Shown here: piece after piece, positions 1,569-12,040 of the stretch
How positions within the stretch are numbered: position 1 is the first letter of the stretch
Layout of the letters: every line of letters starts with the position of its first letter
Source: Candidatus Methylomirabilota bacterium
Lineage (GTDB): Bacteria > Methylomirabilota > Methylomirabilia > Rokubacteriales > CSP1-6
Direction of reading: 5' to 3'
DNA length: 39,090 nucleotides
Assembly: GCA_035936835.1 (NCBI GenBank)
Contig: DASYVT010000150.1
Span: forward strand, 1-39,090
Made by a program: the position numbers and the translations under genes
Notes under the pieces: generated by a model
Databases searched by the model: none
Told to the model about the DNA's origin: nothing
Seen by the model: only the letters and a program-made list of their open reading frames with translations

Positions 1569-1648
1569 CGGGTAGTGGGTCAGTTTGGCCTTGAATCGTC
1601 GGGCCGCTTGACAGAGAATGCTACGAGTCAAACTGGCCCAGTACCCCG
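1569..1648. repeat. Short inverted-repeat element (left repeat of hydrolase island)
   Basis: CGGGTAGTGGGTCAGTTT at 1569-1586 is repeated in inverted, slightly degenerate form at 1630-1648 (AAACTGGCCCAGTACCCCG). It is also repeated inverted with one mismatch in 18 beyond the hydrolase gene at 2930-2947. A direct repeat CCGCTTGACAG occurs at 1604-1614 and 1646-1656. The arrangement looks like a MITE or insertion-sequence end; no transposase is present. The element's family is not identified. Confidence 0.6.
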
Positions 1649-1649
1649 C

Positions 1650-1677
1650 TTGACAGCGCGTTTGTCGACGCTGTATC
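1650..1677 (+). promoter_or_regulatory. Possible sigma-70 promoter for the hydrolase gene
   Basis: TTGACA at 1650-1655, a 16-bp spacer and TGTATC at 1672-1677 lie about 130 nt before the hydrolase start. The -35 is perfect but the -10 is weak, so this is tentative. The -35 falls in the second copy of the CCGCTTGACAG direct repeat. Confidence 0.35.
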
Positions 1678-1811
1678 GGATGCAAGCGTGGGTCGCTGCA
1701 CCACCTTGGACCGAGGCCGGTGGGACCAGGGCAGTGGAAGCCGTTTGGCCTGAGGAGCGCTTGTGTCTTCCGCGCGCCGGAACCACGTTGTATCGAGAGG
1801 AGAAAACGCAA

Positions 1812-2876
1812 ATGCGAACTAGACAAGGTCGGATCCTCACCGGTCTGATCGCGTCAGTCATTCTCACCGCGGCACCACAGGCGTACTCCGCCGAAGCGAA
1901 GGCGCCTGAGATTGTCATGGAAGAATTCATGGTCCCCGCAGTGGATCCGGGCATCCAGCTCTACGTCAGGAACAAGCGTCCGCAGGGCGTCGAAAAGTTC
2001 GGTGCGGACAAGATCCTGCTGTTCGTTCACGGCTCGACCTATGCGGCCGAAACGACCTTCGATCTCAGGCTCGGCGGCGTCTCCTGGATGGAATACATCG
2101 CCCAGCACGGCTATGATGTGTATCTCGTCGATGTGCGCGGGTATGGTAAGTCCATGCGGCCGCCCGAAATGGATCAGCCCGCAGAGCAGAACCCGCCTAT
2201 CGTGCGTACCGAGACGGCAGTGAAGGATGTTGGCGCGGCGGTCGATTTCATCCTGAAGCGCCGTGGTGTATCCAAGCTCAATCTAATGGGCTGGTCGTGG
2301 GGCACGACCATCATGGGATGGTACACCGCGCAGAACAACGACAAGGTCAACAAGCTGGTGCTTTATGCCCCACGCTGGCTGAGCAACACGCCTTCGCTCA
2401 TCGACAAGGGGGACAAGCTCGGTGCCTACCGCGCGGCGTCAATGGAGTCGGCGAAAGACCGCTGGCTCAAGGGAGTGCCGGAGGACAAGAAGGCGGAACT
2501 TATTCCACAGGGATGGTTCGAGGCGTGGGCAGCCGCCGCGCTAGCGAGCGACCCGGTCGGTTCCAAACGGAACCCGCCAGTGGTCCGCGCGCCCAACGGC
2601 ACGTTGCAGGACACGCGCGAGTACTGGGCCGCGGGCAAGCCGCTCTACGACCCGGCGGAAATTCGCGTGCCGACCTTCCTGATCCACGCGGAATGGGATC
2701 AGGACTTACCGAGCTACATGCTGTACGCCTACTTCGCCAAACTCACGAATGCGCCGTACAAGCGCTATGTGGAGATTGGCGAGGGCACACACACGGTGAT
2801 GCTGGAAAAGAACCGCATGCAGCTGTTCCTCGAAGTGCAGCTGTTTTTGGATGAGCGGTTCAAGCCCGCGGAATGA
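1812..2876 (+). CDS. Exported alpha/beta-hydrolase fold protein
   Basis: A 354-residue protein with a Sec signal peptide (MRTRQGR, a hydrophobic run, then a likely cleavage after AYSA). The alpha/beta-hydrolase core is intact: oxyanion region LLFVHGS, nucleophile elbow GWSWG with Ser162, acid in the EWDQDLPS segment (Asp296 or Asp298) and His327 in GTHTVML. The substrate is unknown. ATG 1812 is preceded by AGGAG at good spacing. The gene interrupts the TCA cluster, is bracketed by inverted repeats at 1569-1586 and 2930-2947, and looks less GC-biased in third positions than its neighbours. Acquisition by insertion is therefore likely but not proven. Confidence 0.88.
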   Translation: MRTRQGRILTGLIASVILTAAPQAYSAEAKAPEIVMEEFMVPAVDPGIQLYVRNKRPQGVEKFGADKILLFVHGSTYAAETTFDLRLGGVSWMEYIAQHGYDVYLVDVRGYGKSMRPPEMDQPAEQNPPIVRTETAVKDVGAAVDFILKRRGVSKLNLMGWSWGTTIMGWYTAQNNDKVNKLVLYAPRWLSNTPSLIDKGDKLGAYRAASMESAKDRWLKGVPEDKKAELIPQGWFEAWAAAALASDPVGSKRNPPVVRAPNGTLQDTREYWAAGKPLYDPAEIRVPTFLIHAEWDQDLPSYMLYAYFAKLTNAPYKRYVEIGEGTHTVMLEKNRMQLFLEVQLFLDERFKPAE

Positions 2877-2929
2877 AGGGGGCGCCGTGCGAGGGGCTCG
2901 CGGGCGGCCCGGAATGAGGGGCAGGGGTA

Positions 2930-2947
2930 AAACTGACCCGCTACCCG
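2930..2947. repeat. Right inverted repeat flanking the hydrolase gene
   Basis: AAACTGACCCGCTACCCG is the reverse complement, with one mismatch in 18, of the copy at 1569-1586. Together they bracket a 1379-bp segment containing only the hydrolase gene. CGCAG occurs just outside both ends (1561-1565 and 2952-2956), a possible but unconvincing target duplication because it does not directly abut the repeats. Confidence 0.6.
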
Positions 2948-3091: not shown

Positions 3092-5338
3092 ATGGCGGTT
3101 GACCAGATCAAGCGCCTCTATGCATCCATGCCGGCCACGCTGGACAAGGCGAGGAAACGCTTCGGGCGGGCGCTCACTCTCGCCGAGAAGATCCTGGTCG
3201 CCCACGCCGACAACTTCGACACGCAGGAGTGGAGCCGCGGCAAGGCCCAGCTCCGCCTGCGCGTCGATCGCGTCTCGCTGCAGGACGCCACCGGACAGAT
3301 GGCGCTGCTCCAGTTTATGCAGGCGGGGAAGAAGCAGGTGGCGGTGCCGAGCACGGTGCACTGCGACCACCTGATCCGGGCGCAGAGCGGCGCCTCGGAG
3401 GACACGAAGCGCGCTGTCACGGAGAACAACGAGGTCTACGAGTTCCTCCACTCCGCCTCGCGGAAGTACGGCATCGGCTTCTGGAAGCCCGGCGCCGGCA
3501 TCATCCACCAGGTGGTCCTCGAGAACTACGCCTTCCCGGGCGGCCTCATGATCGGCGCGGACTCCCACACGCCCAATGGCGGCGGCCTCGGCATGGTCGC
3601 CATCGGGGTCGGGGGCGCCGACTGCGGCGAGGCGATGGCGGGTCTCGCGTGGGAGGTGCTCGACCCGAAGCTGATCGGCGTGCGCCTGACCGGTAAGCTC
3701 TCGGGCTGGACGTCGGCCAAGGACGTGATCACGCACCTCCTGGGCGTGCTCACCGTCAAGGGCGGCACCAACAAGATCGTCGAATACTTCGGCCCCGGGG
3801 CCGAATCCATCAGCGCGACCGGCAAGGGCACCATCTGCAACATGGGGGCCGAGCTGGGGGCAACCACCTCGCTCTTCCAGTTCGACGACCGGATGGCCGC
3901 GTACCTCCGCGCCACCGACCGAGCGGACATCGCGAAGCTCGCCGAGCAGCACCGGGCGCATCTCGTCGCCGACCCCGAGGTGCTCGCGGATCCCAAGAAG
4001 CACTACGACGAGATCGTCGAGATCGATCTCTCCGAGCTCGAGCCCACCATCGTGGGACCGCACTCGCCCGACCGCGCGCGGCCCGTCTCGAAGCTCGCGG
4101 CGGAGGTCAAGAAGGAGGGGTGGCCCGTGCAGATCAAGGCCGCCCTCATCGGCTCCTGCACCAACTCCTCCTACGAGGACATGAAGCGCGCGGCGCACGT
4201 CGCCATGCAGGCCTCCAAGGCGGGGCTCAAGGCCAAGACGCCCTTCCTCGTCACGCCGGGGTCGGAGCGCATCTACCAGACCATCAAGCGCGACGGCATC
4301 ATGGCGACCTTCGAGCAGGTCGGCGGCACCGTGCTGGCCAATGCGTGCGGCCCGTGCATCGGCCAGTGGAAGCGCGCCGACGTGGGCAAGGACGAGACGA
4401 ATGTGATCGTCTCCTCGTTCAACCGAAACTTCCCCGGGCGAAACGACGGCAGCGCGGCGACGCTCTCCTTCCTGACCAGTCCCGAGATCGTCACGGCGAT
4501 GGCCTTTGCGGGCACGCTCGAGTTCGACCCGGTGCACGGGACCATCCCCGGGCCCGACGGCAAGGCGTTCCGCTTCACGGCGCCGGAGAGCGAAGAGCTT
4601 CCGAAGGCCGGCTTCGCCAAGGGCGAAGAAGGCTACGAGGCGCCGGCCGCCGACGGCGACAGCGTCGTGGTCGCGGTGGCGCCCAACAGCGAGCGGATCC
4701 AACTCCTCCAGCCCTTCCCGCTCTGGGACGGCAACGACTTCGACGCTCTGCCGATCCTGGTCAAGACGAAGGGCAAGACCACGACCGACCACATTTCTCC
4801 GGCGGGCGCCTGGCTCCTGGTCCGCGGTCACCTCGACAGGATCAGCGACAACATGTTCCTGGGCGCCGTCAACGCCTTCACCGGAGAGACGGGCAGGGGC
4901 GCGAATCCCCTCACGGGGGAGAAGGGCCAGAACTTCTCGAAGATCGCGCGCGAGCTCAAGGCCAAGGGCATGGGTTGGGCCGTGATCGGCGACGAGAACT
5001 ACGGCGAGGGTTCGAGCCGCGAGCACGCCGCGATGTCGCCGCGCTACCTGGGCTGCAAGGTCGTCATCGTCCGGAGCTTCGCCAGGATCGCCGAGACCAA
5101 TCTCAAGAAGCAGGGCATCCTGCCCCTGACCTTCTCGAAGACTTCCGACTACGACCTCATCGACCAGGACGACCGCGTGAGCGTCACGGGGCTCGCGCAT
5201 CTCGCCCCCGGCAAGCCCGTCACGGTCGCCATCACGAAGCCCGGCGGCAAGAGCGTCACCATCCAGTGCCTGCACAGCCTGACCGACGAGCAGATCGGGT
5301 GGTTCAAGGCGGGTTCCGCCCTGAACGCGCTCAGATAA
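3092..5338 (+). CDS. acn: Aconitate hydratase (mitochondrial-type)
   Basis: A 748-residue aconitase that interconverts citrate and isocitrate in the TCA cycle. The [4Fe-4S] ligands are visible: Cys356 in GSCTNSS and Cys419/Cys422 in [10 protein letters not shown]. Further signatures are the substrate-binding Arg in [12 protein letters not shown], the catalytic Ser in EGSSREHAA of the C-terminal swivel domain, and HCDHLI and [10 protein letters not shown] near the N terminus. The length and the '[14 protein letters not shown]' start resemble mitochondrial-type aconitases more than the ~890-residue AcnA or AcnB. ATG 3092 has GAGGAGG 6 nt upstream. The isocitrate dehydrogenase gene follows 22 bp later. 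Confidence 0.96.
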
Positions 5339-11290: not shown

Positions 11291-12040
11291 ATGAGAGAGG
11301 AGACCATCACGCTGGAAGTCACCCGCTACCGGCCCGGCCACGACAGCGAGCCGCGCACCGAGTCCTTCGCGGTGCCGTACCAGAAGGACTGGGTGGTCCT
11401 CGATGCGCTGAACCACATCAAGGACCAGCTGGATGGGACGCTCACGTACCGCTGGTCCTGTCGCATGGGGGTGTGCGGGAGCTGCGGGATGATGGTGAAC
11501 GGCGTCCCCAAGCTCACATGCTCCGCGTTCCTGCGGGACTATTACCCAGGGCCGATTCGGGTGGAGCCCCTGGCCAACTTCCCGGTGATCCGGGATCTGG
11601 TGGTCTCCCTCGATGACTTCATGGAGAAGCTCCGCCGGGTCAAGCCCTGGCTGATCCGCGCCGTGGAGAAGCCCGTGTCGGAGGGCGAGTACCGCCAGAC
11701 CCCGGCCCAGCTCGAGGACTACAAGCAGTTCAGCATGTGCATCAACTGCATGCTCTGCTATGCGGCCTGCCCGGTGTACGGGCTGGCGCCGGCCTTCGTC
11801 GGCCCCGCCGCCATCGCGCTGGCGTACCGCTACAACATGGACTCCCGGGACGAGGGGTATAAGCTCCGAGAGCCGATCCTGAGCGAGAGCGTCGGCGTGT
11901 GGGAGTGCACCTTCGTCGGCGAATGCTCGGTCGTCTGCCCGAAGGGCGTCGATCCCGCGGCCGCCATTCAGCGCTCCAAGGTGGCCGGCGCCAAGGACTG
12001 GGCCATGGCCATGCTCATGCCCTGGGGCGGCCGTCGATGA
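11291..12040 (+). CDS. frdB: Fumarate reductase/succinate dehydrogenase iron-sulfur subunit (second copy)
   Basis: A 249-residue iron-sulfur subunit. The [2Fe-2S] ligands are in [15 protein letters not shown] with a later Cys in KLTCSAF. The C-terminal domain has [14 protein letters not shown] and [17 protein letters not shown] for the [4Fe-4S] and [3Fe-4S] clusters. AGGAG precedes the ATG and the flavoprotein stop is 10 bp upstream. The stop overlaps the next start (ATGA). It differs from the first-locus subunit in both cluster motifs and in length, so the two complexes are distinct paralogues, not a recent duplication. Confidence 0.94.

Follow-up and report, generated by a model that had tools for sequence, protein, structure and literature searches.

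A hydrolase gene between sdhB and acn is the probable passenger of a transposase-less insertion cassette with IS1-family-like ends

The alpha/beta hydrolase gene between sdhB and acn in the window (the whole 39,090-nucleotide stretch that was analyzed) is best explained as the passenger of a mobile insertion cassette at 1571-2945. The cassette has IS1-family-like ends, contains no transposase, and would have been mobilized in trans in an old insertion event (probability about 0.75). The features are as follows:

840-1553, + strand: sdhB, left neighbor of the cassette
1563-1570, + strand: left octamer CAGGGGCG of the putative target-site duplication, 6/8 identity with 2946-2953
1571-1587, + strand: left terminal inverted repeat GGTAGTGGGTCAGTTTG, identical to the termini of IS1-like elements that encode a transposase
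1571-2945, + strand: probable mobile insertion cassette, 1375 bp, 61% GC, without transposase
1629-1645, − strand: inner degenerate end copy GGTACTGGGCCAGTTTG, close to a variant of the short MITEs of the genus
1812-2876, + strand: passenger gene for an exported-looking alpha/beta hydrolase of 354 aa (Pfam Abhydrolase_1, 9.2e-23)
2929-2945, − strand: right terminal inverted repeat GGTAGCGGGTCAGTTTT, 2 differences
2946-2953, + strand: right octamer CGGTGGCG of the putative target-site duplication, pairing with the left octamer
3092-5338, + strand: acn (aconitase), right neighbor of the cassette

The 18-mer CGGGTAGTGGGTCAGTTT is located at 1569-1586 (+ strand), its inverse copy at 2930-2947 differs by one mismatch, and a degenerate copy at 1630-1647 (− strand) has three mismatches. 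With up to three mismatches allowed, these three matches in the window compare with 0.01 expected in shuffled sequence. A chance origin of the repeats was ruled out by the shuffles, together with a reversed-pattern control across the class. ORF and domain annotation placed a single gene between the outer repeats, with sdhB on one side and aconitase on the other. A sequence-only reading of this DNA had described near-identical 18-bp inverted repeats around one gene at this place and a third, degenerate copy near 1630, and all of this was borne out. Further downstream, at 11312-11968, the window contains another frame, SdhB/FrdB-like but divergent (34% identity to the first SdhB).

Because other copies of the element start and end at GGTAG..., the element is correctly delimited at 1571 and 2945; the outer CG of each 18-mer is part of the flanking octamer and lies outside the element. 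The octamers flanking this pair, CAGGGGCG and CGGTGGCG, agree at 6/8 positions, which is imperfect for a target duplication. The same agreement is found in about 1% of random octamer pairs window-wide and in 0.5% of those from local intergenic sequence.

The ends were then located across the class. Among 95 genomes, 14 contained the sequence GGTAGYGGGTCAGTTT, with 38 matches in total versus one for the reversed control; many of the occurrences formed inverted pairs. Three of the elements between such ends carry a transposase: one in genome G045 (2.87 kb) and two in G033 (5.67 and 5.19 kb). Each encodes an IS1-like transposase of ~278 aa at one end, plus cargo, and all three begin with GGTAG and are flanked by identical octamers. 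Outside the window, 16 pairs of the GGTAGTGGG type were compared, with octamers identical at 8/8 positions in 13 pairs, at 7/8 in one, and at 3/8 in two; their sizes include MITEs of 125-329 bp and a near-palindrome of 32 bp. In two loci, the insertions consist of nearly just the two inverted ends (L056 1485-1516, 32 bp; L057 1481-1516, 36 bp), and the 32-bp insertion is flanked by octamers identical at 8/8 positions, GGCGCCGG. Genomes G000-G004 additionally contain, on many contigs and with copy numbers per genome ranging from a few to dozens, MITEs of ~120-245 bp with GGTACTGGGCCAATTTG-type ends, which are related in sequence to the transposon ends.

The ends of IS1 elements begin with GGT. 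The related full elements resemble this family in their GGT ends and in a DDE transposase with the IS1 C-terminal motif. The transposase of the G045 element matched Pfam DDE_Tnp_IS1 with 24.9 bits, narrowly over the curated cutoff of 24.1; its residues D66, D138, and E202 are conserved among relatives, and plasmid proteins 60% identical to it are annotated as "IS1 family transposase." Target duplications of IS1 are 8-10 bp long (PMC3031569), and the exact 8-bp duplications of the two G033 elements and the G045 element fall in this range. Unlike IS1, the full elements encode their transposase in one long frame, whose product matches the NCBIfam IS1 model weakly (48 bits for the G045 protein, under the cutoff of 100), and they carry multigene cargo. 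These features would make the full elements distant members of the IS1 family.

The repeat does occur elsewhere in the same genome, with another full match at C178:36236. This single end borders a low-GC gene for an ABC substrate-binding protein (L010 3237-4531), and no partner for it was found at ≤5 mismatches or via its octamer. A transposase associated with the same ends, also raised by the sequence-only reading, was found in G033 and G045; the own draft genome yielded no intact cognate transposase, only one remnant of 123 residues with a stop (contig C86). The cassette is therefore probably stranded now, with the caveat that repeated elements are often lost from draft assemblies.

When the own genome was searched with the related transposase, there was no match inside 1571-2945. 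This bears on the possibility that the cassette is a decayed autonomous transposon, with its own transposase once located beside the hydrolase gene and later lost through internal deletion. The transposase-bearing relatives do have cargo beside the transposase within the same ends. However, 1571-2945 contains no transposase remnant, C86 was the only contig matched, and the noncoding stretches on either side of the hydrolase gene are short, so that we regard such a decay as quite unlikely. The noncoding parts of the cassette had no homology to any sequence retrieved for comparison.

The sdhB-acn junction was compared in relatives. The two genes are separated by 1538 bp in the window and by far less in G004 (~160 bp) and G003 (170 bp). 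An empty site, with sdhB next to acn, was present as a clean junction in G004. With the cassette removed and one octamer kept, the window reads ...GCAGGGGCGCAGTCCCTTGACC, close to the ...GCGGGGCGCTTCCTTGACC of G004 (aligned by eye). In G002, this point is occupied by a 217-bp MITE with GGTACTGGG-type ends. In the closest relative, G001, a MITE follows sdhB, and acn, which is on a different contig, is immediately preceded by another MITE end; the MITE-flanking octamers CGTCGTCC and CGCCGTCC agree at 7/8 positions (by eye). This suggests a MITE insertion in G001 that was later split by rearrangement of the core TCA junction. The sdhB and acn genes of this genome are on separate contigs, C81 and C25 (L016/L081 and L120), each next to an end of this MITE type. 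The G003 junction retains AAGTACC (7 bp), probably the scar of the same MITE. Since MITEs (G001 and G002) and an apparent MITE scar (G003) are found at the point where the cassette is located, the sdhB-acn junction has been hit repeatedly.

The hydrolase frame is intact, with ATG at 1812 and the stop codon at 2874-2876. The catalytic residues Ser162, Asp296/298, and His327 are conserved among homologs, and the N terminus resembles a signal peptide (judged by eye). Among solved structures, no close one was found, the sole match being a weak one to gastric lipase; no promoter consensus was found upstream of the gene. The gene is missing from all four other genomes of the genus. Its closest homolog (75% identity) comes from a soil betaproteobacterial MAG, in which the surrounding genes look proteobacterial (by eye). 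Three more genera from the same family have homologs with 58-63% identity, which group in a clade of their own that excludes the window gene; the tree resolves neither the branch placing the latter nor the donor. We found no convincing cassette-type ends around homologs in other bacteria and no second copy of the window hydrolase between such ends. GC content drops from ~70% to 60% across the cassette span, and GC3 is 78% in the hydrolase gene versus 93-94% in sdhB, acn, and the gene after acn. By composition, the hydrolase gene is foreign passenger DNA, and its homologs point to a probably proteobacterial source.

These data speak to the idea that the hydrolase is an ordinary resident of the TCA cluster and that the repeats are due to chance or have a regulatory role. 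An intact frame and a plausible ribosome site are all that fits a resident gene. Its absence from the four congeners, the deviating GC and GC3, and the tie of the ends to a transposase and to target duplications stand against it, making this explanation hardly credible.

The left part of the cassette is more complex. The left end (1571-1587) and the inner copy (1629-1645) form a 75-bp hairpin, 1571-1645 (MFE z = −3.3). The octamers flanking this pair agree at only 2/8 positions, i.e., a target duplication is absent. An exact 11-bp direct repeat, CCGCTTGACAG, is located at 1604-1614 and again at 1646-1656, where it immediately follows the inner end copy. The inner copy may be a nested remnant, and the repeat could be the target duplication of this tiny remnant or a simple local duplication; the inner copy shows that the left end has had a more complex history. 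An independent MITE insertion at 1571-1645 was considered and found unsupported by the 2/8 flanks. As for the proposal that the left end looks like a MITE, the hairpin with its inverted ends is real and the target duplication is missing.

The hairpin also allows for two separate events, in which a MITE inserted at 1571-1645, the hydrolase gene arrived by another route (for instance, homologous or illegitimate recombination at MITEs), and the end at 2929-2945 stands alone, so that the pair never moved as a unit. The MITE-like fold, the related MITEs that G001 and G002 have at this junction, and the MITE ends adjoining the separate sdhB and acn contigs of G001, which suggest a MITE-associated rearrangement, are all compatible with such a history. 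It is nevertheless unlikely, given the flanks (2/8 for 1571/1645 versus 6/8 for 1571/2945) and the outer ends, which are nearer to each other and to the GGTAG transposon type than the inner copy is. Because the octamers agree at 6/8 positions for the whole span and at 2/8 for the left hairpin, we favor one cassette with the gene inside. The earlier proposal of mobile DNA thus stands with respect to the transposon ends, the foreign passenger, and the empty site; its placement of the hydrolase between two separate bracketing elements does not.

For the single cassette, we infer mobilization in trans and insertion as one unit. The transposase of a full element would recognize both inverted ends, cut at GGTAG.../...CTACC, and insert the cassette between sdhB and acn, which would duplicate 8 bp of target. 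With it, the hydrolase gene would arrive as the passenger, and drift would follow. The insertion appears to be old, because the duplication has drifted to a 6/8 agreement, two positions of the right end have changed, and the transposase of the own genome is a broken remnant.

Judged by its sequence features and the definitions in PMC3129680, the cassette is best read as a mobile insertion cassette (MIC), with a duplication that is suggestive and imperfect. As in MICs such as MIC231, there are IS-type ends and a passenger gene, and the transposase is absent. The left end is identical to those of the G033 and G045 elements, the right end differs from them at two positions, and the sole gene is the alpha/beta hydrolase. 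By analogy, a related IS would presumably supply the activating transposase. MIC231 goes with IS231 (De Palmenaer 2004, as cited in PMC3129680); in contrast, the ends in the window belong to an IS1-family-like type of element that makes 8-bp duplications. The term tIS is used in PMC3129680 (citing Siguier 2009, on the IS1595 family) for ISs with passenger genes at the borderline between IS and transposon. The window element shares ends plus a passenger with tIS, and the G033 and G045 elements, with their transposase, fit this description; unlike tIS, the window copy has no transposase, and the related transposase matches IS1 rather than IS1595 models. IS-derived MITEs (reviewed in PMC10969869) have counterparts in the class, where short elements of 134 down to 32 bp have the same ends and 8-bp duplications. 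MITEs are defined as small (~50-500 bp), noncoding, bounded by terminal inverted repeats, and flanked by a target duplication, whereas the whole window element is 1375 bp long and contains a full gene.

Other cargo is bounded by the same ends. Among the genes of the G033 elements are those for MunI-type and SfiI-type restriction enzymes, for methyltransferases, and for XRE/ImmA-IrrE-type proteins (RmrA in PADLOC). These two IS1-like transposons of 5.7 and 5.2 kb (G033:C1; L076 632-6302 and L077 777-5963) have exact 8-bp duplications and type II restriction-modification genes; one of them also has a SocA/Panacea-like antitoxin. In two Rokubacteria-like genomes, single ends border low-GC gene pairs (both judged by eye), one in G003 with ImmA/IrrE-like and PIN-like members and one in G013 resembling VapBC.

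We tentatively propose that Rokubacteria and Methylomirabilis (names inferred from the character of the genomes) may share an undescribed lineage of cargo transposons based on the IS1 family. Its ends would move single genes, toxin-antitoxin-like units, and type II restriction-modification units, with the transposase encoded or not, and would thereby reshape core loci such as sdhB-acn. A related genus has restriction-modification transposons with these very ends, so a single simple end sequence can serve to find mobile cargo phylum-wide. For uncultured Rokubacteria-like bacteria, this would be a concrete route to gain single metabolic genes beside core operons, recognizable by its ends and the 8-bp duplication rule.
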